Positions 179 through 38,645 of a stretch of 64,000 bases of DNA are shown here, piece after piece. This stretch comes from Siderastrea siderea (taxonomy: Eukaryota > Cnidaria > Anthozoa > Scleractinia > Rhizangiidae), in the NCBI GenBank assembly GCA_964030785.1, contig OZ034969.1:29485901-29549900 (forward strand), in the 5' to 3' direction. Numbering within the stretch: position 1 is the stretch's first letter; every line of letters begins with the position of its first letter. Both the position numbers and the translations under genes were made by a program. The notes beneath the pieces are model-generated. The model did not search any database. It saw only the letters and a list, made by a program, of their open reading frames with translations, and had not been told where the DNA came from.

Positions 179-335
179 CCCCGGGGGGGGGGGGGGTATT
201 CCTTTATATACGCTATATAGGTATGTGCCGCCCGATAGGGTATGGTTTTTAAGGTGCTCAGTCCTTAAATAGGGTATCCTTTTTGGTATTTTTTGGTATT
301 GTGATCCTTAGATGTTCCTTAGATAGGGTCACTAA
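179..335. repeat. Left terminal and subterminal repeats of the 7.2-kb transposon
   Basis: The terminal CCCC plus G-run is followed by ATGTGCCGCC and then by repeated near-palindromic boxes of the form CCTTAAATAGGGTA (about 265-282, with a variant CCTTAGATAGGGT at about 313-328). The same order (terminal run, GTGTGCCGCC, TAGGG boxes) is found inverted at the right end. Such boxes are plausible transposase-binding sites, which is inference. Confidence 0.7.
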
Positions 336-854
336 ATCGCAGTATCCACCTCAACGCGCAAAACGAAAAAGATATGGTCTGTTGAAACTGTACTGCACGC
401 CCGAATACACGTTGTAAAGTTTAACAAAGCGATTTTAAAAGGACGTCTATAGCTTGTGTTGCTATACGTGCGCTCCTCACTTCCACGCAGCCGTCAGGGG
501 CCAGCCGTCATTTGAGTCGTCACCCCGGGGTTGTCACGCAACGCTTCTCCTGACTATTGTTGTAAATTGTAAAATAATAACTGTTAAGAAGACCACGTGC
601 GCGGTGTGCAGTTTTATTCGTTTCTTGTTGTCATATAAATTCTCATCGTATAGTAAAAGCCCAACTAAACATCCAGGCTTAACTCAACAGTACAAATAAA
701 TGTAAAATATCACCTGGTAAAACAATTGAATTACGAAGCAATCCAGGGAAGCGATCAGAGTTCAAGTCCAAAGTGTCAAATGCATTGCCGTCTGGGTCAC
801 CCAGGGTTTGTCATGAACAATAAACCAACACGTGCTCAGTATCCGGGCTCGTTT

Positions 855-1553
855 TCACTCCTGAGTTGCATCAGTTGCACTTAGTGGCGGTCGAATCAGC
901 TCACAGGAAATACCACGGCTACGGATAACCCGAATTAAATCTTCGGCCTTTGGCTTTTCTGTTTCAACGCTAACTGTCAGTGGGACGTTTATTCCGCCCC
1001 CAACGCGCCATCTCCCCTCAGGATCATTGAATGGGCTTCCTGTCACAACACTGAAAGGTAGGCGTTACAAGTTAATTATAATTACACAGTAGTTTCTAAT
1101 GTGCATGTTAAAACCCGAAACGAAGTATAAATGTATTTTCTGCGGTACCTACCACTGAAGTCGTTCAAACGACCACAACGGGTCGACAAGGTCACGCACC
1201 AGATGACCTAGTTGCCCACGGTCATTCAAAATCTTAAACGCCCTTCCCTTCGTCCCGTATTTCTGCATAGCCACAATTCGCTCTCCAATTTCTATTTCAA
1301 AAGTACAGTCGTGGTAACCTTTAGCTACACAACGAATTGCAACTGTATTGATCGCATTATTTGCGAGAGATTCGGACTCCGACAACATTATTCGTACACA
1401 ACTCGGCACAACCACAATTTTAAACCGCTCAGATCTAATTTTAATTAATAAGTTAATATTTTTTTTAAGGATTGAATCTCTCCTCCGGGGATCTTCCAAA
1501 GGCCATATTCCTTCCACTGTTTTGCCCCATTTCAAATCGCGCAAATTAGACAT
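855..1553 (-). CDS. Two-exon antisense gene inside the 7.2-kb transposon, function unknown
   Basis: Exon 1 runs from the ATG at 1553 down to 1153 and exon 2 from 1050 to the stop at 855. The 102-bp intron 1051-1152 has a GTAGGT donor and a TTTCAG acceptor. The codon split TG|T rejoins in frame, giving about 198 residues. The product is basic and soluble in appearance, with no membrane segment or signal peptide. It starts MSNLRDLKWGKTVEGIW, has a central hydrophobic beta-like stretch (FKIVVVPSCVRIML), and ends in a glycine-rich turn (RVGGGINVPLTVSVE) then SRGISCELIRPP. I do not recognise the family. It is transcribed away from the transposase-like gene. Unlike that gene it has no visible break, which suggests it was under recent selection or arrived late. 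It could be an accessory transposon protein or a captured host gene. Confidence 0.6.
1051..1152 (-). other. Intron of the antisense transposon gene
   Basis: Reading the minus strand, the donor is CAGTG|GTAGGT and the acceptor is CTTTCAG|TGTTGTGACA. Removing it joins two open frames without a stop. Confidence 0.6.
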
Positions 1554-1764
1554 AAGGCCAGCGGCACCGTCAGCTGTCCGATAAAAGAGGATTCCCTTTT
1601 TCCTGGCTACGTGCCTTCTAGGGGCCGATGGTACCGCTGGCTAGTCTCCCCGTAGGCCAGGAGTTGCCTGCGGAGGAGGCTAACCGCTGGCCTTGTCAAA
1701 TTCTGATATATTGACAGTTGAATAAATTTTGAGACAGCAGTAGTGAAGTTGACATAACAAATCA

Positions 1765-1884
1765 GGGGTCAATTTAATAAAAATTTCACAAGTGTAATTT
1801 ACAGGTGTAGCCATTGTTTCAGAGGTTGAAAACAATAGCTACGCTTGTAAATTGCAGGTGTAAAAGTTTTATTAAATTGACCCC
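1765..1884. repeat. 120-bp foldback (MITE-like hairpin)
   Basis: The arms GGGGTCAATTTAATAAAA and its inverted copy bracket a short loop at about 1820-1830, and pairing extends for roughly 55 bases per arm with scattered mismatches. It lies within the 7.2-kb transposon, just upstream of the transposase-like gene. No clear target duplication is visible. Confidence 0.75.
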
Positions 1885-4800
1885 AGGATCATCATGAACT
1901 CTGTAAAACAATTGTCGATTGTAGGCTGTAGGCTTGGCTGGAGAAATTTTGTTACGACAGAAAAGTAGCAGCAAAACATTTAATTAATTTGGGGTCTACA
2001 GGTCTCTAAACCGTGGGAAAGGACAAGCGGGGTATTGCAAGAGGTCATTGTACTGAATGAGAATGTGAGGAATACGAGAGCGGTGCGATACGATGTGATT
2101 ACTGTGGCCACACCCCGATGGATCATGTTCCACTTGAACCTTTACCTAAGAGGACCAGATATGACGAGGTACTCACCGGAGAGGAATCAGAGCCAACAGA
2201 CGAAGTTCCCGTCACAGAAGTTGAAGACGATGCATCCGAGGGACCTCAACCTGAGAGGCCAAGGCACGACGAGGGGCTGAAGGGAGCCCCGACCGGAGAG
2301 GGAACAAGGGCAGGCAAAGCAGTGCCACCAAATGGAGCTTCCGTATTAGAAGTAGATGTAGATGTAGCCAGGAAAGACGTAGATGACGAAGTTGGCCGAT
2401 TTCAGAGCCAGGTCGATGACATCACGAAAGTCAGAAGATTCGTTATTAGCAAAGATGACGGAAAACTTTTCGCCTTTTGCAACGCATGCGCTGTGAAAAT
2501 TGTTGCCGGAAAAGAACACAAAGGCCACGATATGTTTTTGCTAAACCAGCACATGGCCACTGCATCACATAAGACGAATGAAGCGATTTGCCTTTCACGA
2601 GAAAGCGAAATTCCCCCAGCCGTTGTAAAGATACAACGAGAAGTAGAAGAAAAGTATCCGCGTGTCTTTTCATTCAAAATCCCAAAATTCTTTTGCACGA
2701 CCTGAAACCGGGAGAGGATGAAGGGAAAGTGTCGTGGTACCCGGAACCGTTTTTTGTATTAAATGAAACGAGGCATAAGAAGGTAACAGGGACATTTCGA
2801 AGTAGCAGCTGTTTGCGGGCTGCAGATGCAGGAACATTCCCGGATGATATGTGTTCAGCTTGTTCTGATATACCAAAATTAAAATCATTCAGGAAACGAA
2901 TCTTGCTGAGGACTGAGAAAATCGGCGAAGATACTAGCGACCGGGACACAACACGTGTACGTAATGAATACCTCACTTCTAAAGAGATGGTGCAAAAGCT
3001 GAAGGAACAGAAAGAGAAACTTGATCAGAAAGATGACAAGCTTTTCTTCATTACATCGGCCGCTGTTAGGCTTCGTATACGTGCTGGAAGTTTAAGAGAC
3101 AAGTTGAGAGAATATTCCCGAAGGGGATCTATAAAAGCTGTTTGTTACAAGTTGCAGAAAGCTGCAGATTTAAGGCAATGCTAGAGACTGTTTCAAGAAA
3201 CCTGCACGTCCAAAAGAATGGGAAACGGTACCAACCTTCCTTTAAGTTCTTTCCTTTAAGTTTCCTTCCTTCTGATGTTGGGAGGACCCAGGATCGCTAC
3301 CTTTGTGGCAATTAACCTAGGAGGCCCTGAAATCCATTCGATTTACCGGTGGCGCAATCAACATCGCGTTGACATAAGTGGAGGGATTCAAGAAAACAAT
3401 TTCAAGAAGCTTGGGCCACTGTACAAAGAAGCGATGGCAAAGGTCAAGTCGTGTTCTGTTCCTGTCTTAGCTGCCGAAGATGAGACAGCTATTATTGGCC
3501 ATGTAACGTACCACCAGGACACGGATGAGCTCTTTGGTTTTTGTGGGGTTAACGGACAACAACATGCATGCCTTGACCATTTTGCTGTTGTGGTTGGAGA
3601 TGGCGAGGAAGGTTTTACTTCAATCGTTAATGCCTTCAAGGAGTATAAGATTGGTACATATGGGAGAGCAATAATGCTCAACCCTCTCCATCCAAATCTT
3701 CCCGTGTTGCTGTCCTCGTTATGCCCACCTGTAACAGGTTTGACCACCAATTCGTTTACCGACAGTGGCAAGAAGTGAAGCGACTCTACGACCAGGAGTT
3801 GAAGAACATCGTAGGTCCCCTTATCGGTAACAGCTCGGATGGCGACTCCAGGAGGCGGAAATTAATGCTGCAGCTAGCCACGGTTGATGTCGGTCACAGA
3901 TTCAGGCCCATTCCTCGAAACCTAGGGTTTATCATTTCGTGCAAAAAGGTGGACACCGAGAATGGTTACGATGTTGAAGACATGTGTGATCAAGATTTCG
4001 TGCACAACCACAAGAAGCTACTTAATCCCTTAGATCACGCATCTCGTGTGCTTAGAATGGGCGACTATCTGATCCACATGAATCATCTTCAATTAGTCAG
4101 TGAAGTCTTTCCTTTTCCCGAACATGGTTTAGGCCTTAGTGACATTGAACGTCGCGACAGGCAGAATTGGAGATCTGCCCAGAAATTAATATTTCCGAAG
4201 GTTCAACGATGTCTCGAGGCCTTGATTAATGGTACAAACCAGGATCGTCCTCCCGATATCACACTACTGGGAACTAAGACGTATCTTTTAATTATCTGGT
4301 ATTACGTAGAGATCTTTTGCAGTAGCGTGGCATCTTTGACAACTAGAATCAAGTACGCAGCCATCGTTACACACTTCCTTGTAATTTGGCGAAACTGGAT
4401 CTATCAGCACAGACGCTTGAGGCTTCGAGTGAACTTTATCTCCAGAGAAACATACACAGATGTCATTTTATCCTGTCCTTTTGCTGTGATGCTTATTGTG
4501 TACATGAGAGATAACTTCCCCCAGGAGGACTGTCGGCTTGACGAAACTGGATCCGATGTGGTGGAGGACTTTTGGAGTAAGAACGGTCAGTGGATGGGGA
4601 ATCATCACAATTACACCTTTGGTGATTTGAGACGCAATACTTCACACATGATTCGTTTAGAGGAGATTCGCGTGGACCCATCTGCCCCTGAATTTGCAAA
4701 GCCGCACCCAAAGCAGGAGAGTATCTGGGAACAGCAGTACGAACGCCCTATCAATATGGTGAATTTGAAGGAGTATCCTGCCGTTGGCGCAGAAACAGAA

Positions 4801-5092
4801 GCATGGAAAGAAGGAATCAACATTGCAAGAAGGTTGGCAAGGTCTGTTGGAATGATACCTGCTACTGACACTGCAGATGAAGACAGCAATGATGACGACG
4901 ACGATGGTCATGAGGGAAGTGAAGGTGATGATGGGAGGAATGCAGGTCGTGAGGATGATTGGTTTTACCGTCCCTTTGAATGCTTGGGGAATACATTTCG
5001 TTCCAACCAGGATGAAGATGACGACCCCCACAGCTGTTCGCCCACCGTTGGTGACGAAGACGGTATTAGTGCTGGAGGTCCATCCATTTCAG

Positions 5093-5232
5093 GTAATGCA
5101 ACAATTTATCTTACAGCTCGACTTATTACTGCATATAAAGGTGTTGAATCTTAAACAATTTGTTATTACTTTCCGCATACAAGCGTTCTATCATACCCAT
5201 TAGTTATTTCCTTTCTATTATACTGTTTTCAG
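5093..5232 (+). other. Intron 1 of the transposase-like gene
   Basis: Donor TTTCAG|GTAATG and acceptor TGTTTTCAG|ATGAGC. The join TCA G|AT GAG restores an open frame from the poly-acidic region into the ELLPLCEGIDD segment. Confidence 0.65.
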
Positions 5233-5446
5233 ATGAGCTGTTGCCACTTTGCGAGGGTATTGATGATGCGCGACCACTCCTTGAAGGCCTGACCGAGCTT
5301 GATTCTGGTGAACGACAAAATGCTGAAGCTCTGCCCAACCGTGGAAAGATTTCTCCTAAAGTTGTCATTCCTGGTGGGAAAGAAGAAGTATACAAGTCCA
5401 CGCTGGTGTCTATATTAAATGAGGATCCTCACTTATCTCACGACAG

Positions 5447-5608
5447 GTATAATTTAGTCGTTTATTCTAAGAATTTGGCCAGTCTAAGTAGCTCTTATTT
5501 TGGCCACAGAGGTCAGAGTTTGATTAGTAAGATTTTAACAATTATAGCTTCAGCGAATAATACAATAAGTCCTAAAATTTGTATTTCTAGTTGTTTTGTT
5601 TGTTTTAG
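5447..5608 (+). other. Intron 2 of the transposase-like gene
   Basis: Donor CGACAG|GTATAA and acceptor TGTTTTAG|ATTGC. The intron is 162 bp, a multiple of three without a stop, so the frame also reads through it; the splice signals argue it is an intron. Confidence 0.6.
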
Positions 5609-6207
5609 ATTGCAAAGAGTTCGCCAACGCCAAGAATACAGAAATGCAGAAGGAGCACCACACCCTGAGGATGACAATAACAGAGTCTCTCTGTTCAACG
5701 ACTATGCGTGGTTAGACAGACGAAATAAAGCATATGTCATTGGCAGTCTTGTCCGTCTTGTTCGTGTTGGAGATCATGGCCGCCAAGACTACAAACGACC
5801 GGTCCCCTACGATGACCCCAAAAAAAGAAAGCAACACATGTTTTGTCCAAGCGTACAACCCCATTGGACCAAATTCATTTGAGGTTACTACGGCCAAGCT
5901 GCTTGAGAATCCTTTCAAAGATATCTTGACTCATGTGAATCTGGAGATTTCTGATACGGCCGAGGCCCTCCTTATCAACGAGGAAGAACATGCCGAGGTC
6001 AAGAAAAGTGTTGCGATGATGTTGGAGCCACGCCGACCACGGAGGAGTACCATGGCCTCTTCAGAATCCCCGTCAAGCAGAGCACACCAAGGGTGCGCCA
6101 TCAATGATGATGGGAGGGTAGTTGTTGAAGTACAGCCAGAGGAACAAACTGAGGGAGGACCGCGCAGGTCAACCAGAAAACGAAATGCGTTTGTGTATGA
6201 CTCGTAA

Positions 6208-7234
6208 TGATTTATAGTAGGAATCCTACACAATTGCATTTCGTTACAGTCAATCTACATCATGCGCCCGGTCCCTAATTGCAGACCGCAGGCTGTAGAC
6301 CGTCAAACAGCCATTTGGCGATTTATCACGTGTAAACTGCCTGCAATTTCACGGCCATATGGCAATTTGTACGGCGAGTCGTAGGAGATGTATCGTTCAG
6401 TTTAGCTGACGAAATCGCCGATAAATCGAATCAAAGTTCGCGCAGGTTCGAAACAGCCGCGATTTTCCGGCGACATATCGTAGTCATTGAGTCAAATAGC
6501 CGGGAAATCACAGGTAAAGTTAACACAAGGGATTTGAAATCGCCACTGAAATTTCACTTAAAATCGCATAAAACATCGCCTGAGTATGCAAACAGGACGA
6601 CCAGTGTGCTTCATTAATGTACGCATATAAGGTTAAAACTGCTGGAATTTTGGCGTTTTACACATGCAATCCACCAACTTCCAACTCCACAAAACAGCAA
6701 ATGTCATATAAATAACGTCAAAAGAAGTATTGTAAATAAGTTGAAATTAGATTAAGTCCGACAACAGCTTCCACAAAAAACGCAAATTTCATGTAAATAA
6801 TTTAGGCAATGTTCATTCTTTTAACGTCCACAGGAGGTTTTGTACGTCTCTTTTAGACTTAGGTCATGTATGCACATCGCCTGTATTCCTGATGACATCG
6901 GAGGTTGAAGAGGAATAATGCAGTGTTCATTATTCATTATAGTTCGACTTCAGGTTTCCGTATATTTTCGTCTTTTACTTTCTAGCTGTGTTTTGGATAT
7001 GAAATTGTAAAGACAATAATAATTATTGTCTTTGGTTCAGTTCTATAAAAAGATAACAGAGGTCAAAATAGTCTGAAAGATAAACCATGATAATTACCCG
7101 GGAGTTATATATGATGGCATATTATTAAACTAGGCTTCGTCTGGTATTCTATGCTTAATGCTAAACGTTCGTGTACAGAGGAAAAGAAATAAAACGACCT
7201 ATCAGTTACACAATTATGAGTTATCTTGTTTCCC
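6208..7234. other. Non-coding 3' interior of the 7.2-kb transposon
   Basis: No open frame of note. AT-rich sequence with a short CAATAATAATTATTG-type palindrome near 7014-7030. Nothing else is recognised. Confidence 0.5.
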
Positions 7235-7388
7235 GGGGTCTTGTTTCCCTTAAATAGGGTAGCATTTCTTGGTTTTGGGCCTTAAAAAGGGTATCAATTC
7301 TCGAAATTCTACCCTTAAATAGGGTCAGGGTTTGAGAACCTTGGCGGCACACACCTCTCCTAAATTGACGGGAGTATCCCCCCCGGGG
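7235..7388. repeat. Right terminal and subterminal repeats of the 7.2-kb transposon
   Basis: Three boxes of the type CCTTAAATAGGGTA lie at about 7249-7262, 7279-7293 and 7310-7327. They are followed by GGCGGCACAC and the terminal CCCCCCCCGGGG. Read inwards, the sequence mirrors the left end, including the GTGTGCCGCC block. Confidence 0.7.
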
Positions 7389-7401
7389 TTACAGCAAAGA
7401 A

Positions 7402-7620
7402 ATGGAAAAGATTACAACTGTTTTAACTTTAGCTATACTTATAAGCGTCTCTTTAATTTTAAGTAAGTTAAGTGAACGTGGTAAACATGTTTACCACAAA
7501 AATCCGCTGAAACTTGATCCACGGCCTACATATAATACTACCGCTATCCACGACCCTGCGAAACCGCTGCCAGCAAGTACCATTGTTATACAGTGGTGTG
7601 TAGACTGTTACGCCGCCTAA
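7402..7620 (+). CDS. Small ORF with N-terminal hydrophobic segment, hypothetical
   Basis: The 72-residue frame starts at an ATG just after the transposon insertion site. Residues 5-23 (TTVLTLAILISVSLILSKL) form a signal peptide or signal anchor, followed by a basic, proline-rich segment (KNPLKLDPRP). Copy B has the same frame, but its ATG is ACG (22808). Copy C keeps the ATG at 36715 but is interrupted after about ten codons. The 7.2-kb transposon sits 13 bp upstream of the ATG, so any promoter in copy A has been displaced. The frame may be the first exon of a longer secreted or membrane protein. Coding status is uncertain. Confidence 0.3.
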   Translation: MEKITTVLTLAILISVSLILSKLSERGKHVYHKNPLKLDPRPTYNTTAIHDPAKPLPASTIVIQWCVDCYAA

Positions 7621-8010
7621 ACTTGTTTTTCGGGATGCAAGCCCATCGCAAAGCGCCCTGTTTTAGTAGGTTGCGAGTAATTATAGTAACCAGAGTTGTC
7701 CTCCTTCCTTGGGTAGAGATAGTACCAATCGATTTTGTATTGTGGGTGAAGACGTCCTTCACCAATTAGGTACTCAGCCCCGAAGAGTGTGTCCACTAGG
7801 AGGATCATCTCTTGGTTCTGCGGGTGGCTATGTTCTACAGGGCACCGCAAACTGTGCTCCACCCCTATAATTCAATCACGATAGAGTGGTTTTACTTGAC
7901 CGTTTAAAGAAATAAAATATGATACTGGGTAAGTGGGAGAATGGTCATTGGTGAGCCATGAAAATACTCAAGTAGGGATCAAGTAACATTCTGTCCTTGC
8001 GATTTTTTAA

Positions 8011-8393
8011 AGGGGCATAGTCACGAGGATTTCGCAGATTTCTGATCAAAACTGAGCTAATATTATCGGTAGCTAACTTTATCCATGCCCAACATTGTGT
8101 TTGAACATTTAAAGAAACAAATTAACTTAATTCCATTTAGAGAAAACAAATCATGACCATTTACTATCGATTTAATGTCAACACGCTAAAAGAATTTGAA
8201 AAGTTTAACCTAATTTTTTCAAATTGCAATCCATTTCCTTCCGTGCCATCCGTACCAACAGACGACAGAAAATAGTCTCAGTGAAGTAATACAGTCTTTG
8301 GTAACAAAACTAGACCATTATTTGTGAGCCTTCTTTGATGTGAGGACATATTTTTCATTTTTAAAGTGAACTAAAAGAGCGTGACTATGCCCT
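8011..8393. mobile_element. 383-bp TTAA-flanked MITE
   Basis: The terminal inverted repeats are AGGGGCATAGTCACG and its complement (one G shorter on the right). TTAA lies on both sides (8007-8010, 8394-8397). Copy C has the empty site GATTTTTTAACACTTGAC at about 38051. A second member of the same family, the same length and inverted, is at 22115-22497. TTAA targets are typical of piggyBac and Kolobok superfamilies. No coding capacity. Confidence 0.85.
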
Positions 8394-8765
8394 TTAATAC
8401 TTGACACGTTCCTGCGCTTGTCATTCAATTGACATCTGTATTTTAACAACAGAAAGATAAAGGCGCAATGGTTTTGCTAACTCTCTGCTGTACAGCATAT
8501 TGAATCTCCTGTATGAAACGCATACAACTGTGTTTGGGTGACTACTTGAGCCTCCTGCAAGACTACGTAATATTCAAGAATGTAAGTTACTATGCCATTT
8601 GAAAATCAACACGAAAACTGGTGGCTGTTTGTCAAAGACAGGCCCTTTCAAGATAGGGTTGAAAGCCTACAGTACAGCCTACAGTTGTGAGCTCCTGCAA
8701 TAGGTTCATGAAACTGACATGAATTTAATTTTGTTCAGTTCTATTAGGTATTATCAGAATAGTTT

Positions 8766-9011
8766 TTGCGTGATCTGTTTTGGAAAGTGCAAAAAATACA
8801 TAGCGCAAAAATGAAACCCGCAAAACGTCAAGCTCTGGACCCGTCTGATTATCACAAAGTGGTTAAAAATAACCATGGAGAACCGCGCAGTGATTTAGTA
8901 TGCAGAATATGTCAAAATAGTCCTCGTCGTTCCACCGTCCTACCGTTAACCCTTTTCAGACCTAGGTGGGGAGAGGAGGAACTGCCAGCACGGACTTTGG
9001 ACGTTCATTAA
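8766..9011 (+). other. Weakly supported ORF shared in part with copy B
   Basis: The 81-codon frame contains MKPAKRQALDP at about 8811. Copy B matches for about 25 codons, then shifts frame at about 23870. The cysteine pair CRIC is kept only in A. It is probably not a functional gene today; it could be an old exon. Confidence 0.15.
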
Positions 9012-11950
9012 TTTTTTTAAGAAGCAAGGTAAGGCCACCACGTTTGGCAACTTTTCCTAAAATCCAGTACCTGGGAACAATTTGACGTCACCATGACAAC
9101 CATATTTTGACAGGCAAGTTTTCCAGAATTTTTTAAACGCAGTGTTTACATTTTTTTTACATTTATTAACTGGAGCAAGGGATTTCCATTGAATTTTTGA
9201 ATTTCTCTACGAATTTTCAACTATTCCCTTCAATTCTGAATTTTTCATGATAACGGGGCTTTAATTTGGAGACCCGACTCAAATCTTACTGTTCATGCAT
9301 CCTTTCTCTTGTGTTCCGCGCTCGCGTCTCGCGCTTCCTAACCACCCCTCCCCCCAGGCTACGAAAGCTGCAATGATGCATTTTAACTCCTAATCAGCAG
9401 CCAACTCAAATTAACCGCCAAACTTTCTTCTCGATTGAAAAAACATATCTCCTGGAATAATGTTTTTCCCGAGTTGAATAACAGTCCCCATGGAAAAATC
9501 CCCACCCACGTCTTGAATAACTAATAGCCTCCTTTTGGACCAAATCAAAGGAAAAATTGCCAAAGCTATTATGCTAGCAGTAAAGCAAACGTCTGGAACA
9601 AATTTTGTTTTCATTGCTTGTTATTTGGTAGTTTACAATAAAACCGGAGCAATCGAAATGGAAGCAGCTGACACATATTAATGAGTCCTCCGAGGAGACA
9701 ACGTGGTATAAAAGTCCACTAATTAATGCAAATTAATAATATGCACAGGATGAGAATAAAAAGGGGAAACACCATCTTGTTTGCGAGACACACACTAAAT
9801 TAAAAGTAACTTCAGCGTTTGTTTAATGGAAATCCATTGTTTTATATTTCACCAAAATATGATATTTTAGAGATTTTTTTATGGAGACTAAAGAATAAAC
9901 TCTGGATCACAAGAGAAGGCCTAGATAGGCGTCAACTGTTGGATGACTTTATTAGCTCAGAAGGACAAATTGCAATAGAAAGCAAGATGGTGGCCATATG
10001 GCCGGTCACGACTATTTGTGATCATAGTACTCAGATTTTCATACATCATACAATAGATAATTGGTAGCATCACACATCAGCTTGTGAAGCGTTATCAGAA
10101 TCGGCCGTGGTCAAACAAGGATCAAATGTCAGAACAGACTTTGTTAGCTCAGATGGTTGAATTGCATGCGCAGTGCGACGTTAGATCATGGCCATATGGC
10201 CGTTGACTTTTTTTGATTATGCTACTATTTTATATATCATACGATAGATAAAAATGTTGGCAGACTAACACATAAGCAGATAAAGCGTTTTCAGAATCGG
10301 CAGTGACCAACCTTGGTACTTGTAGGGACCTCCCTTTTTATAAAAATAGGTGAAAAGATTGAATTCAATTGGGTAAGGCATAACATAATAAGAGTAGAAT
10401 AAAAACTATAAATGTCGCAACGAACAATGCAATAATGACAAGCTGGTGCGGTTAGGGAACGAAGTCATGATGACAAAGCCATTCTTCACAGCATGCATTT
10501 ATAAACGTCACTTGTATTTTCAAATGAAAGGTTTGACACTCTGCACGTTTGTCACGGATATACGTAAACTACGTTTGTTTAAATGTCCAAAATTTTGCGG
10601 GTAAAAATCAGTTGCAGCGAATTGGCCAGAACTTTAATTATTCCAAGGTTTCAATTTGATGGTAGAAAACTGAAGACAGCAGTGCAGCTTGGATATCATT
10701 GTTGCTCGACTGGATATTTCTTCACAAGATCAGAGCAGACCTGAACCTGGTAAGCGAGTGGAAAAGCATGAATTTCATCCTTGCATAAATTTACTGTTTT
10801 CCGATCGAGGATGCTTATACGTCTTTACTCTGATTTCCCTTTTTGATTTTTGATGAAACAAGCAGTACACGTAAAATCCTTATTGTAAAAGGAATTTATG
10901 TGTATTGTAGCATAGTAAAGGTTCTGAGACCAAGATAAAAAACTCCCTTCTGCTCCCCTTAAGAAAAATAGGATATTTTTCTCGGGGAGTGGAGCGGGCA
11001 ACTGCGCACATAGAGAACCTACACAAAGTAGGACAAATAGTACAAGGCTTTTTGCGGATACGAGAGGTTTAATGAAATAGCGACACAAATTAAAGCACGG
11101 AGTTGTCGGTCGGTCGGAGAAAAGATGTAGATCGCTGTGGCTTTTCTCTTCGTGATTTTCTTCTTGTTTGTACTTTTGCTCCCTTGAAATGCCATCTGTA
11201 ATATGCTGCATTCCAAGTTTTGCCGGCGGAGCCGTTCACAACTCGCTCCATGGAACGGAATATCACCGAAGATTAAACTTCCCTTCGTGTTGTTTATACT
11301 CTTTTACAGGTAATCAGTAGCATAGGAAAAGTTTTTTTTAATCTTTATACACGAAAGCTAAAACAGGTGCACGTGTTGTTTTCTGTTTTTTTTTACTTAA
11401 TATAGCATTCGAAAACTCTTTGAAATTTGCATGATCTTTTTATTACCGGGTGCCCGCCATCGCTTATGAGCATATCATTAGGATCATTAGCAACACGAGC
11501 CTGCGAGCAAGCAGCTTACCGGCTATTAGGCCACAGACCGCTAATCTGCTCACAGGTGGTTTTAATTGTTTCGCCTATTCTCCTCGGGGTTTTCAAAGGA
11601 TGCAAGGCCGTTATCGAAATCAATTTCGCGATCACATAGACATTGTTTGAAAAATATCGACACTCTGGAGCATTATCAGGCGTTATTTCGATACCGTTTG
11701 ATACTGTGCACGGGGCTTCTTGGACGGAAAAAGTTGCATGAAATATTCCAGTTCGTATGCAGTTTCTATGAAAAGCTATGAAACGTAATCCTTTTGAGCA
11801 GAAGTAGTCGACAGCGTCTTTGCACAAAATCTACTGTTTTGACTTGAGTTCTGCGGTAACACCTAGCAAATTTTTTGTTATGACCAACTTGTACATAGTT
11901 GGAATGAATTCTCTATCGGTTCCGAACCTTGTGATCACTGAGTTAACCAT
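9012..11950. other. Copy A interior without a recognisable gene
   Basis: It aligns with 23990-26520 in copy B. Open frames here are short and not preserved between the copies. A donor-like CCTGAACCTG|GTAAG at about 10750 (GTAAGTG in B, about 25485) follows a stretch open in both copies and could end a small exon. No start or acceptor could be fixed. Confidence 0.4.
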
Positions 11951-19335: not shown

Positions 19336-20022
19336 GTGACTTGGACCATCAAGAAGCGATCTTATAGTGTCAAAAATCTTTATAGTCCCGACCCGACCGT
19401 AAGGCGCGTAAAGCTGGAATCAGATCGAGATTGAGAGTTTAAAACTTTTTCAGTGAGATCTTTCCAGTCTTGAAAAAAAGCGTTTACCGAAGCTCTCCTT
19501 TCACTTTTGTACAGCCCCCGAATACACCGTCTTCTCATACTTTTTTCCACTTCCAGGCCACCCTCACGTTTTTGCTTCCAGTAGTTATCCTGATCTTTGT
19601 CTTAGTTTTTGCTTAAGACTTTTAGAGAACGAATTTATTTTGTTGTCTATCCAATTGTTTTTTGCTCCGTGTCCTGGTTTTTGGGTCTCTGTTGTACTTT
19701 TTTCGTCTCTGTTGTCTGTCTGTTGTCCTTTCCGCACTCTCCGTGTCCTCTGTCGTACTTTTTTACTTTTTCTTTTTACAGCTTTACTTTTACTTACATT
19801 TTCTCGCCCAGTCAGTCCTCTAAGTGCCCTCTGTCCCACGTAGGTTTCCTCTGTTCGAATATCCTGTCCGATGCCTGATCTCGTTAGTACGATCTGACTC
19901 TGTTAACACGGCGGAATTTTTACGGCCTGTCGATGTTAGTTGCTAAATCTTGTCAAAGAAGGCATCGTCATCTTTCCCTTAAAACAAAAAATAACGGAAA
20001 AGCACGGCCACAAGAGCAGGCG

Positions 20023-20093
20023 TGCACTGGCCGGGAATCGAACCCGGGCCTCTCGCGTGGCAGGCGAGAAATCTACCACTGAACCACCAGGGC
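20023..20093 (-). tRNA. tRNA-Gly(GCC), copy A
   Basis: The minus strand gives a 71-nt cloverleaf with box A TGGTTCAGTGG, anticodon loop CTGCCAC (anticodon GCC), box B GGTTCGATTCC and discriminator A. The anticodon stem CTCGC/GCGAG is fully Watson-Crick here, where copy B has a U-G pair. The acceptor stem GCCCTGG/CCAGTGC has a C-T mismatch at the third pair that copy B lacks. It is probably still transcribable, but charging or processing may be weakened. Confidence 0.9.
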
Positions 20094-22110: not shown

Positions 22111-22114
22111 TTAA

Positions 22115-22497
22115 AGGGGCATAGTCACGCTATTTTGGTTCACTTTAAAAATCAAAAATATGTCCTCACATCAATGAACGCCCACAAATAATGGTCTAGT
22201 TTTGTTACCAAAGACTATATTACTTCAATGAAACTATTTTCTGTCGTCTGTTGGTACGGATGGCACGGATGGAAATGGATTGCAATTTGAAAAAATTAGG
22301 CTAAACTTTTCAAATTCTTTCAGCGTGTTGACATTAAATCGATATTAAAAGGTCATGGTTTGTTTTGTCTTAATAAATTAAGTTAATATGTTCCTTTTAA
22401 TGTTCAAACACAATGTTGGGCATGGATAAAGTTAGCTACCGATAATTTTTGCACAGTTTTGACCAGAAATCTGCGAAATCCTCGTGACTATGCCCCT
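22115..22497. mobile_element. 383-bp TTAA-flanked MITE, second member (inverted)
   Basis: It has AGGGGCATAGTCACG termini, TTAA on both sides (22111-22114, 22498-22501), and the same internal sequence as 8011-8393 read on the other strand, including the same total length. It lies outside the duplicated block. Confidence 0.87.
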
Positions 22498-22807
22498 TTA
22501 AGACCTGATAACACCGCGTTATCACCGATGGTGAAATCTGGATCGCACAAAATTTTAATTTTACTGTTTTCGAGGATTTTTGTTTACCGTTGTCATGGAA
22601 ATATCGATTTTCACAAAATGTAAACCACGCTAAAGCTCAATCCAAAACCAACAGGTTTTGCAAATTTCACGTTGATCCACCAATGAAGACTGTTTAAAAG
22701 CCGATTTAAAAAGTGAGGTATGGTCCCCAAAAAACTGTATCGAAACACCTTAATTCCGGCATTCATACCAAGTACATCGAGTGTGAACTTAAGTTACAAG
22801 AAAGAAA

Positions 22808-23166
22808 CGGAAAAGATTACAACTGTTTTAACTTTAGCTATACTTATAAGCATCTCTTTAATTTTAAGTAAGTTAAGTGAACGTGGTAAACATGTTTACC
22901 ACAAAAATCCGCTGAAGCTTGATCCACGGCCTATATATAATACTACCGCTATCCACGACCCTGCGAATCCGCTGCCAGCAAGTACCATTGTTATACAGTG
23001 GTGTGTAGACCGCCTAAACTTGTTTTTCGGGTTACAAGCCCATCGCAAAGCGCCCTGTTTTAGTAGGTTGCGATTAATTATAGTAACCAGAGTTGTCCTC
23101 CTTCTTTGGGTAGAGATAGTACCAATCGATTTTGTGTTGTGGGTGAAGACGTCCTTCACCAATTAG
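22808..23166 (+). pseudogene. Copy B of the signal-anchor ORF, start codon lost
   Basis: The EKITTVLTLAILISISL segment and the following 50 residues match the 7402 ORF. The ATG is changed to ACG. The downstream frame differs after WCVD because of a 6-base difference (TGTTACGCC is shortened), so it runs on to 23166. Confidence 0.3.
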
Positions 23167-23169
23167 GTA

Positions 23170-26100
23170 CTCAGCCCCGAAGAGTAGGTCCACAAGGAGG
23201 ATCATCTCTTGGTTCTGCGGGTGGCTATGTTCTACAGGGCACCGCAAACTGTGCTCTACCCCTATAATTCAATCACGATAGAGTGGTTTTACTTAACCGT
23301 ATAAAGAAATAAAATATGATACTGGGTAGTGGGAGAATGGTCATTGGTGAGCCAAGAAAATACTTAAGTAGGGATCAAGTAACATTCTGTACGTTCCTGC
23401 GCTTGTCATTCAATTGACATCTGTATTTTAACAACAGAAAGATAAACGTGCAATGGTTTTGCTAACTCTCTGCTGTACAGCATATTGAATCTCCTGTATG
23501 AAACGCATACAACTGTGTTTGGGTGACTACTTGGGCCTCCTGCAAGACTACGTAATATTCAAGAATGTAAGTTACTATGCTATTTGAAAATCAACACGAA
23601 AACTGGTGGCTGTTTATCAGAGACAGGCCCTTTCAAGATAGGGTTGAACGCCTACAGTACAGCCTACAGTTGTGAGCTCCTGCAATAGGTTCATGAAACT
23701 GACATGAATTTAATTTTGTTTCTATTAGGTATTATCAGAATAGTTTTTGCGTGATCTGTTTTGGAAAGTGCAAAAAATACATAGCACAAAAATGAAACCC
23801 GCAAAACGTCAAGCTCTGGACCCGTCTAATTATCACAAAGCGGTCAAAAATAACCATGGGGAACCGTGCAGGTGATTTAGTATGCAGAATATGTCCTCAT
23901 CGTTCGACCGTCCTACCGTTAACCCTTTTCAGACCTAAGTGGGGAGGGGAGGAACTGCCAGCACGGACTTTGGACGTCTATAACTTTTTTAAGAAGCAAG
24001 GTGAGGCCACCACGTTTGGCAACGTTTCCTAAACTCCAGTACCTGGGAACAATTTGACGTCACCATGACAACCATATTTTGACAGGCAAGTTTTCCAGAA
24101 TTTTTTAAACGCAGGAGCAAGGGATTTCTTTTGAATTTCGGAATTTCTTTACGAATTTCAACTATTCCCTTCAATTTGGAATTTTTCATGATAACGGGGC
24201 CTAAGTGTGGAGACCCGATTCAAATCATACTGTTCATGCACCCTTTCCCTTGTGTTCCGCGTTCGCATCTCGCGCTTCCTAACCCTCCCCCCCCCTCCTC
24301 TCTCTTCTCTTTTAGCGCCGGCCACACAGAAAAATTGCCAAAGCTATTATGCTAGCAGTAAAGCAAACGTTTGGAACAAATTTGTTTTCATTGCTTGTTA
24401 TTTGGTAGTTTACAATAAAACTGGAGCAATTGAAATGGAAGCAGCTGGCACAAAATAATATGCACAGGATGAGAATTAAAAGGGGAAACACCATCTTGTT
24501 TGCGAGACACACCAAAAAGTAACTTCAGTGTTTGTTTAATGGAAATCCATTGTCTTATATTTCACCAAAATATGATATTTTAGAGATTTTTTTATGGAGA
24601 CTAAAGAATGAACTCTGGATGTCAAGAGAAAGTCTAGATAGGCGTCAACTGTCAATTGAAACTACTTTATTAGCTCAGAAGGACAAATTTCAATACAAGG
24701 CAAGATGGTGGCCATATGGCCGGTCACGACTATTTGTGATCATGGTACTCAGATTTTTATACACCATACAACAGTTAATTGGTAGCATCACACATCAGCA
24801 TATGAAGCGTTATCAGAATCGGCCGTGGCCGACCCAAGATCAAATGTCAGAATAGACTTTGGTAGCTCAGATGGTTAAATTGCATGCGCAGTACGACGTT
24901 AGATGATGGCCATATGGCCGATTGATCACGTTTTTGTGATTATGCTACTATTTGTGTATGTCATACAATAGATAATAATATTAGCAGCATAACACATCAG
25001 CATATGAAGTGTTTTCGGAATGGGCAGTGTCCAAGCTTACATGGAACCTGTAAGGACCTCTTTTTTTACGAAAAAAAAAAGGTCAAGAGGTTGAATTCAA
25101 TTGGGTAAGGCATAACATCATAAGAGTAGAATAAAAACTACAAATGTCGCAATGAACAATGCAATAATGACAAGCTGGTGTTAGAGACGAAGTCATGATG
25201 ACAAAGCCATTTTTCACAGCATGCATTTCAGAAACGTCATATGTATTTTCAAATGAAAGGCTTGACACGCTGCACGTTTGTCACGGATATGCGTAAAATT
25301 ACCTTTGTTTGAAGGTCCAGAATTAAACAGCTAAAAAATTCAGTTGCAACAAATAATTGAACAGACTTTAATTATTCCAAGATTTAAATTTGATGGCAGA
25401 AAACTGAAGACAGCAGTGCAGCTTGGATATCATTGTTGCACGACCGGATATTTCTCCACAAGATCAGAGCAGACCTGAACCTGGTAAGTGAGTGGAAAAG
25501 CGTGAATTTATCCTTGCATAACTTAACTGTTTTCCGATCGAGGCTGCTTAAACGTCTTTGTTCTGTTTTGCATAGAAGTTGAAAATAGCCATTTGCTTTT
25601 TTGCTTTACACGTAAAATCCTTATTATACAAGGAATTTATGCGTATTGTAGTACAGTAAAGGTTTTGAGCCCAAGACAAACTCCCTTCTGCTCCCCTTAA
25701 GAAAATCATGGAGATTTTTCTTGGGGAGCGGGCGGCTGCACACATGGAGAACTTACACAGAGTAGGACAAACTAGTACAAGGTTTTTTTTCGGATACGAG
25801 AGGTTTAATGAAATGGCGACACAAATTAAAGAACGGAGTTGTCGTCTGGTCGGGGAAAACTTGTAGATCGCTATGGCTTTTATCTTTGTGACTTTGTTCT
25901 TGTTTGTACTTTTGCTCCGGTTAAATGTCATCGATAATATGCTGCATTCCATGCTGCTCTATGGAGCGGAATGTCACCGAAAGATTCAATCCCCCCTCCA
26001 TGTTGTTTATAGTCTTTTATAGTTGATCAGTAACACAGGAAAAGTTTCTTTTTTAAATCTTTATACACGGAGCTTAAACAGGTGCAACTCTTTGAAATTT

Positions 26101-33654: not shown

Positions 33655-33725
33655 TGCACTGGCCGGGAATCGAACCCGGGCCTCCCGCGTGGCAGGCGAG
33701 AATTCTACCACTGAACCACCAGTGC
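33655..33725 (-). tRNA. tRNA-Gly(GCC), copy B
   Basis: The 71-nt cloverleaf has a perfect acceptor stem GCACTGG/CCAGTGC, box A TGGTTCAGTGG, anticodon GCC in loop CTGCCAC, box B GGTTCGATTCC and discriminator A. It matches the usual animal tRNA-Gly(GCC) and appears functional. Confidence 0.95.
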
Positions 33726-36602: not shown

Positions 36603-36734
36603 GCGATCTACATCATAAGTAACTACCGTTTGATAACAGTATATAACTTTTTCTTCGCCTTTTAATTCATTTACACCAAGTGCATCGAGTGTGAACTTAA
36701 GTTACAGCAAAGAAATGGAAAAGATTACAATTGC

Positions 36735-37490
36735 TTTATTAGGACGTTGGCGCAAAAATTTTCTACAACACAGATTCTACTTCGTCATTAATCAATGTCG
36801 CTAAGGACTTCGTAGAATGTCAACCAAACTTCAACTTAAGGTAAGTCTCGTTTAATTTTTCAATTTTTTTTTCATACTTTTGCTACAGTCAGTTTACCCA
36901 TGTCAGAAATGAAAAAAACTGGGGGCTCACCAACGTCGTTTTCGAAATAAAACGCGCGAAAAACTACCCTAATTTTGACAAATCGATCGTCATAACTCGG
37001 CATGGCCTCAGTGGATGTTGGTTGAAAAAGATTTAAAATGATTCGCTGTAGATCCACTTTCTCAGTCAAATGTTATTTAAGTGGGTCTGTCAAGTACAAA
37101 ATTTGAACCGGCGTCATCCTTTCAATTAAATTCAACCTTTTAAGATGGGCTTTTGCCAAAATCGTGCAGCTAAAATAATAGCTCAACTCGATAATGCGTG
37201 GGCAGAAAAGTTGAAAAAAAATCAAACTTCACTGACAACATAGATTTTCTTCAATTTTTCATGAAACGTAGATAATCGATAAAGAAAGCGATCTGTCAAA
37301 AGAAAATTTGGGCCAACGAACATTTAAGAGAGTTAAATCCGTGCATAGGTATTAAAATGCCCACTAGCCCTATGTATCTCTACATTCCTTCAACAGCGCG
37401 TACGCTCAAAGCATGACGTGGCTTGACATCGTGATTTGAATTGCGTGCCCAGTGTTAGGATGCGCAGAAATAATTAGCGTGAACGTGTTT
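36735..37490. other. Unrelated DNA inside copy C
   Basis: It replaces or interrupts the signal-anchor ORF after about ten codons. It contains GGTAAGTC at about 36840, which looks like a donor, but no coding frame is recognised. Its junctions are not sharp, so I cannot say whether it is a transposon. Confidence 0.4.
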
Positions 37491-38118
37491 AATATACTTA
37501 TGATATCGATCGTCTCTTAAATCATAAGTATTTTGAGTAACCGTGGAAAACATGTTTACTGAACGTACAAAAAGCCGCTGAAGGTTGATCCACGGTAATG
37601 CACATTACCGTTATCCACGACCTACGAATCCGCTGCCAGCAAGTATCATTGTTGCAATTTGGAGTTCGAGCGTAGACTGTTACGCCGCCTAAACTTTTTT
37701 TTCCTGGATGCAAGCCCATCGCAAAGCGCCCTGTTTTAGTACGCTGCGAGTAAATATAGAAACCAGAGACAGTACCAGTCGATTTGTGTTGTGGTGATGA
37801 CGTCGTTTACCAAGTGGGTACTCAGCGCCGAAGAGTGGGTCCACTAGGAAGATCATCTCTTGGTTCTGCGGTGGCTGTGTTCTACAGGGCACTGCAAACT
37901 GTGCTCTACCCCTATAATTCAATCACGATAGAGTGGTTTTACTTAAACCGTTTATAGAAATAAAGTATGGTACTGTGTAGTGGAAGAATGGTCATTGGTG
38001 TGGCCAAGAAAGTACTTCAGTAGGGATCAAGTAACACTCTGTTCTTGCGATTTTTTAACACTTGACACGTTCCTGCGCTTGTCATTCAATTGGCATCTGT
38101 ATTTTAACAACAAAAAGA

Positions 38119-38503
38119 TTTGGCAAACATAGGGTCAGCTTTTTAGGGCCAGTGCTATGGTAGAAACTGAGCTCGGAGGTGAGAGAATCAGAGACCATAA
38201 AGATCTTTAAAAATCGAGTCAGAAGTATGAGACTGGACGAACTAATAATGAAACAATGCCATTGCTCACTATGTGATAGTTAGTTAGTTAGTTAGCTAGT
38301 TAGTTTGTATTTTCATTACAATCACTTGAATTAAACAGAAAATTATTCTTTAGATATATATTGTTTAGACATAAGAGCATGTTTTTTAACAATTTGTAAT
38401 ATTATTAGTATTATCATTTAGTGCGTCCCCAATTAGCACCCTGTCTTTACAGGGGGCTAGATCGATTTTGACACGGAAATAAAGTTATTTTTATTATTAT
38501 TAT
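38119..38503 (+). mobile_element. 5'-truncated non-LTR retrotransposon, 3' end only
   Basis: Absent at the same point in copies A and B, where ACAGAAAGAT passes directly into AAACGTGCAATGG. It starts inside a reverse-transcriptase-like C-terminus (SETIKIFKNRVRSMRLDEL ... SLCDS-stop, about 38186-38282). It contains (GTTA)n and ends GGAAATAAAGTTATTTT followed by (ATT)n, typical of CR1/L2-like tails. Confidence 0.8.
38278..38305. repeat. (TTAG)n simple repeat
   Basis: Tandem TTAG units with one TAGC variant inside the LINE tail. Confidence 0.7.
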
Positions 38504-38645
38504 TAAACGTGCAACGGTTTTGCTTACTCTCTGCTGTGTACAGAGAACTTTTTCATCACAGATTTCCAATAATGTGGCTAGCTTTCGGGATCATAATCTG
38601 TGTATTGGTTTTCTCAAGCTAGAATTACTGAGTATACGTAGTTGT

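Follow-up and report, generated by a model that had tools for sequence, protein, structure and literature searches.

Is the 7.2-kb stretch near the left edge of this coral DNA a mobile element and, if so, to which lineage of transposases does it belong? The stretch lies in a window of 64,000 nucleotides (the whole piece of Siderastrea siderea DNA that was analyzed), for which a first-pass annotation had proposed a DNA transposon of a possibly undescribed family. The evidence described in the following sections makes it probable that the element is a degenerate DNA transposon of the cut-and-paste type. Its transposase would be distantly related to the P element transposase and represent a deep lineage that is nameless in the libraries searched.

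Insertion Site and Target Duplication

The 7.2-kb stretch is a complete DNA transposon on the plus strand (180–7387, or 179–7388 under a 6-bp reading of the duplication), as the first-pass annotation held, with inverted tips, a flanking duplication, and two unoccupied paralogous sites. TTACAG flanks both ends, at 173–178 and 7389–7394. The flanking DNA is part of a segment repeated in the window, and because this segment runs on without the element at 36701–36708 and 22793–22800 (both plus strand), it provides classical evidence of insertion. The first site reads AAGTTACAGCAAAG. The second (GTTACAAG) reads AAGTTACAAGAAAG and is empty with two bases altered. At the 36.7-kb site, about 100 bp of left flank and 37 bp of right flank align, and on the right the paralogue is interrupted at that point; at the 22.8-kb site, 43 bp of left flank and 606 bp of right flank align. 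A 27-mer of the flank occurs three times in the window at up to three mismatches (two exact occurrences and one with a single mismatch) and in none of 100 shuffles. The segment that is the source of the empty sites measures about 2 kb and is present in three places (7389–9500, 22111–24295, and 36605–38537); it is partly inverted and interrupted, with 81–95% identity in the longer pieces.

Readings of the duplication from 3 to 11 bp were listed, and lengths of 3–8 bp all restore the empty site, the longest being 8 bp. Symmetrical CCC tips result from both the 6-bp reading (TTACAG, tips CCCCGGGG) and the 8-bp reading (GTTACAGC, tips CCCGGGG). In the maximal reading, the copies of GTTACAGC occupy 172–179 and 7388–7395, whereas the minimal symmetrical reading is TTACAG. 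The 6-bp duplication of the first-pass annotation therefore fits the empty site, but its length is not fixed, since the 6-, 7-, and 8-bp readings of this one copy each reproduce that site. If the true length were 6 bp, chance agreement at the two outer bases would have a probability of about 1/16 (our own estimate, with equal base use). The target stagger is probably 8 bp; 6 or 7 bp also fit. End structure and duplication length rest on n = 1, because a single copy of the element was seen with its ends.

Element Ends and Internal Repeats

The tips read CCCCGGGG starting at 179 and CCCCGGGG ending at 7388. The earlier description of inverted termini of C plus G-runs is accurate, with the qualification that the runs are unequal. 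The left tip (180–196, plus strand) is CCC followed by 14 G, and the right tip (7378–7387) reads CCCGGGGGGG on the minus strand, with 7 G. Thus, CCCGGGGGGG is common to both inverted tips and the G-run is longer on the left. The run of 14 G (183–196) may stem from slippage or from the assembly, or it may form a four-stranded structure. Farther in, inverted repetition is conserved only in part: AGGTATGTGCCGCC at 219–232 (plus strand) matches 7343–7356 (minus strand) at 13 of 14 positions.

A subterminal repeat, CCTTAAATAGGGTAT, is located at 263–277 and recurs, also on the plus strand, at 317–331 (three mismatches), 7248–7262 and 7280–7294 (one mismatch each), and 7313–7327 (two mismatches). 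At up to three mismatches, these are the five copies in the 64 kb, and all five lie within about 150 bp of an element end. Shuffled sequences contain 1.88 copies on average and 3 of 100 reach five, so the position of the repeats, not their number, is telling. Further copies of the element ends did not exceed the chance level in the 64-kb window. In a search for element copies elsewhere, a 17-base end piece matched 3 viral and 14 prokaryote contigs; these matches were rejected as chance, as all are short (17–25 bases) and isolated. The transposon also harbors a 120-bp fold-back repeat at 1765–1884 (55-nt arms, 85% complementary). It looks like a miniature element nested in the larger one, and its edges possibly bear a short CAG repeat.

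The Transposase Gene

The transposase coding region, as placed by its relatives, covers about 2013–6207 of the plus strand. It contains the large zinc-finger gene, the D, D, E-like motifs, and the two introns recognized in the first-pass annotation. The N-terminal frame (2013–2702) encodes a cysteine-rich start (CDYCGHTPMDH), an acidic stretch, and a zinc finger. One protein, P0089 from Desmophyllum pertusum, matches 2013–2489 (27% identity, E = 1.9e-10), and the rest of the transposase is matched by many relatives. P0089 and the window N-terminus have in common the start GKDKRGI.RG.CT and the motif C.YCGH.P..H. The zinc finger (2478–2570) was located by its pattern, C-x2-C-x20-H-x5-H, which is present in one of eight relatives checked (P0134). 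Between 2490 and 2690, the N-terminal frame joins the next frame through a frame change or an intron.

The following segment (2678–3727; 79–81% identity to relatives by tblastn) contains a Cys motif, a helical stretch, a helix-turn-helix (GGPRIATFVAINLGGPEIHSIYRWR, 3281–3355) that aligns with AGPRAYNHLY..RTTLYRWL of the P element, and the first catalytic D (AEDETA, 3479–3481), which aligns with D230 of P. The core then continues in another reading frame up to the first intron (3703–5092; 85% identity to P0001) and includes the second catalytic D (SSDGDSRRR, 3838–3840), a DxxH motif (DFVH, 3994–4005), and the catalytic E (GSDVVEDFW, 4564–4566), which aligns with E531 of P in an extended alignment. 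These correspond to D288, D408, and E652 as the catalytic residues in the numbering of P0007. In an alignment of 122 relatives, from which the chimeric P0142 and P0094 and all proteins shorter than 400 aa are excluded, the catalytic residues are conserved in 111/111, 115/116, and 99/101 of the rows with a letter, and the D and H of DxxH in 115/116 and 116/117.

Two GT-AG introns of 140 bp (5093–5232) and 162 bp (5447–5608) interrupt the gene, and their removal keeps one open frame. The exon between them (5233–5446) is continuous in frame with P0100. The last exon (5609–6207) encodes, from about 5682, a C-terminal domain considered BAH-like by the predicted fold of P0100; for this C-terminal piece, 33 of 38 aligned proteins passed a filter of 140–260 residues, and 15 of the 33 were used. 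An inverted repeat with 28-nt arms (82% complementary) surrounds the transposase stop codon at 6179–6245. The reading frame is broken by an in-frame stop at 2058–2060 and by frame changes near 3178, 3258, 3715, and 5830, so the transposase of this copy is inactive as it stands. Judged from its sequence, the copy is degenerate and cannot make the enzyme, unless the breaks are assembly errors. Full-length relatives are present in protein collections.

The element carries a second gene on the minus strand (855–1552; exons 1552–1153 and 1065–855), with a GT-AG intron and an open frame of about 198 aa. Two relatives were found, with 77% and 66% identity over 35% and 40%. One of them, P0161, lies on a contig of 2,439,274 bases, and the same figure is listed for P0047, a transposase piece with 90% identity. 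The minus-strand gene may travel with this transposase subfamily.

The Protein Family and Its Distribution

A search with a 501-residue query yielded 99 proteins. A profile built from an alignment of 44 relatives yielded 194, of which the best 120 were listed, among the best 7992 candidates scored. Among the 159 proteins of both searches (the best 120 of 194 in the second), at least 34 have 990 or more residues. The named hosts among the matches listed are the cnidarians Clytia hemisphaerica, Oculina patagonica, and Desmophyllum pertusum, the brittle star Amphiura filiformis, the mussel Mytilus edulis, the sea spider Nymphon striatum, and the liverwort Riccia sorocarpa. Close named relatives include proteins of stony corals. 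In a FastTree phylogeny of 112 rows, branches are deep and the liverwort protein falls inside a well-supported group of nine; one row, P0098, has a long branch and is unreliable. Profile searches of a genome-contig collection and of viral contigs returned 63 and 108 pattern stretches, respectively, none of which was confirmed as a relative.

Some clusters represent up to 306 database sequences, which fits a multi-copy element. The large spliced gene could suggest a host gene or a domesticated transposase rather than a mobile element. However, the empty sites already contradict this explanation, and together with the inverted tips and the flanking duplication they delimit the gene exactly. In addition, the copy is frameshifted, and a host gene would have to account for relatives in such numbers. 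Thus, this explanation is hardly credible, and the locus is treated below as a transposon.

Pfam matched none of the eight window pieces (including 2061–2705) and had few, mostly marginal, matches among the relatives. The most frequent was PF21787, the N-terminal RNase H domain of TNP type, found in 4 of 44 relatives (best E = 5e-4); the other 40 have no match at E up to 1. Two other Pfam families match 2 of 44 relatives each. In P0142, PF21787 scores above the cut-off through three stretches. This protein from N. striatum is a chimera in which the first RNase H segment is represented by three stretches, and its C-terminus has a weak exonuclease-like match (Pfam Viral_alk_exo/YqaJ). The chimera is perhaps a gene-model artefact.

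The few named matches are titled “hypothetical,” “uncharacterized,” or “unnamed.” This agrees with the first-pass view of an undescribed family whose coral proteins are uncharacterized, but the fold search described in the next section links the family to the P element. It is quite possible, although we lean the other way, that the family is already catalogued, for example in Repbase as “P” or under another name, and is absent only from the open libraries searched. Repbase has P among its superfamilies, and a protein family of this size may well have come to the attention of repeat annotators. However, no description of this transposase family was found in the literature titles and abstract openings searched, and none of the Pfam models of 2025 covers the family, with PF21787 touching a few members.

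Probable Relationship to the P Element Transposase

The fold over the helix-turn-helix, the split RNase H domain, and the helical insertion domain is predicted to be of the P type. The top matches of the fold search are P, Transib, and RAG1, and the RNase H fold that the first-pass annotation suggested looking for is predicted, together with a helical insertion domain like that of P transposase. The two structure models have only three alignment rows in common, but come from one family and one method.

A sequence search against the P element structures gave no match at E up to 10. An hhalign comparison, using 106 of the 122 alignment rows and a P transposase sequence typed in and checked against PDB, gave a score of 34.9 (P-value 0.002, probability 13%), compared with 19.1 for the reversed P sequence and 28.0 for the best of 100 shuffles. 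The default alignment comprises 77 columns and runs from the helix-turn-helix as far as the first D. A permissive alignment covers 494 columns and places AEDETA on AFDEM (D230), SSDGDS on VSDLGT (D303), GSDVLEDFWS on NQDIVEHFFG (D528, E531), and YVEIFCS on WFDIFNS (D444, N447). The equivalence of the second D and the E to those of P comes from the permissive alignment only. That alignment does not place DxxH on D339–H342 of P, so this equivalence rests on place. In the part of the source drawn on here, the P superfamily signature consists of catalytic D, D, and E with [C/D]xxH after the second D (PMC8230255); the family has D, D, and E, with DxxH after the second D.

Two features of P differ. 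The residues contacting GTP in P are given, in the sections consulted, as D528, K385, K400, V401, S409, F443, D444, and N447 (PMC7776569). The position of D528 is D in 92/102 rows, and that of D444 is acidic in 99/110 (E in 84, D in 15). N447 is N in 0/110 rows and F443 is F in 1/110. In a less certain register, K385 is K in 3/114, K400 is K in 3/116, V401 is V in 3/116, and S409 is S in 16/114. By sequence, the GTP contacts of P thus appear mostly changed in this family. As for the THAP domain, none is among the Pfam families listed for the window pieces or relatives (25 of 27 families in one listing). The THAP C2CH spacing pattern does not occur in the window frame 2061–2702 or within the first 400 residues of any of 159 proteins, many of which lack the N-terminus.

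In its predicted fold and active site, the element would operate like a P element. It is not filed as one, because the searches revealed no THAP domain and the GTP contacts are changed. The same two differences would favor a separate superfamily with a 6-bp TTACAG duplication that has only the general RNase H and insertion-domain fold in common with P. The fit of the 6-bp reading to the empty site and the many members without a PF21787 match point the same way. Such a separation seems rather unlikely to us. The simplest interpretation is that of a sister lineage, deep and unnamed, within the P group of transposases.

The comparison of the first-pass annotation to IS3EU and Dada was built on a duplication of 6–7 bp, yet 8 bp fits equally well, and it finds no support here. 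No integrase of the IS3-like kind that IS3EU would have is among the Pfam families listed, an absence that excludes nothing; the fold search leads to P. Dada elements resemble the coral element in their zinc fingers, DxxH signature, introns, and overlapping duplication length (6–7 bp). However, in the available part of their description, Dada-U6 and Dada-U1 are without terminal inverted repeats (PMC3706591), whereas the coral tips are inverted. The same part locates all Dada elements with clear ends in small RNA genes (PMC3706591), whereas Rfam and ARAGORN found no RNA gene at the coral site. In the window, the RNA genes found are limited to two minus-strand tRNA-Gly (gcc) genes, at 20022–20093 and 33655–33725, far from the insertion site. 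Catalytic spacing also differs: Dada-U6_DR, as far as it is described there, has D-D and D-E distances of 68 and 176 (D567, D635, and E811; PMC3706591), compared with family medians of 120 and 242. A Dada assignment is therefore very improbable.

Proposed Mechanism and Implications

Under the preferred reading of a remote P relative, the N-terminal cysteine-rich part, the zinc finger, and the helix-turn-helix would bind the subterminal CCTTAAATAGGGTAT repeats. The bound N-terminal parts could then pair the two element ends, helped by the long N-terminal helix. The putative RNase H core, which carries D, D, and E and, like P, a helical insertion domain, would cut at the CCCGGGG tips. The cut ends would be joined to target DNA at positions that are probably staggered by 8 bp. 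The BAH-like domain at the C-terminus may serve to direct the complex to specific chromatin.

A broader interpretation is offered tentatively and with some doubt, namely a widespread, unnamed eukaryotic superfamily that has the P fold but no GTP pocket or THAP domain, either through loss or from the outset, and uses a BAH-type reader to steer insertions. If true, this family would show the P machine before its dependence on GTP, or how it does without GTP. The P transposase insertion domain is reported to be the sole one known to bind GTP (PMC7776569) and is called unique (PMC8230255), in the parts of both sources used here. Comparing the full-length members of a broad sister family with this predicted fold and altered GTP contacts would allow tests of how GTP dependence arose. 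The family would also provide a name for many proteins now called “uncharacterized” in the genomes of corals, mussels, brittle stars, and liverworts, and supply a family profile likely missed by transposon surveys that rely on known models. Should the BAH-like domain prove real, it would point to a DNA transposon whose insertion is guided by chromatin.

Comparison with Known Systems

The coral family resembles the Drosophila P element (PDB 6p5a and 6pe2) in its predicted fold and in the order of its D, D, DxxH, and E motifs. It also has D where P has D528 and an acidic residue where P has D444. The P element duplication is 8 bp, which is possible for the coral element. In contrast, P uses a THAP domain and GTP, neither of which is seen in the coral family, though many relatives are N-terminally incomplete. 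The two Ds are separated by 100–140 residues in the family and by 73 in P. The coral element is also larger (7.2 kb, compared with 2.9 kb for P) and has CCCGGGG tips and a BAH-like C-terminus.

THAP9 and zebrafish Pdre2, as far as the source portions used here describe them, resemble the coral element in the P-type fold, predicted in the latter, and in the catalytic triad, and an 8-bp duplication is compatible. Zebrafish THAP9 is said there to keep the GTP-contact residues, and THAP genes carry a THAP domain, features that the coral family does not show. Transib and RAG1 match the coral family much more weakly than P does.
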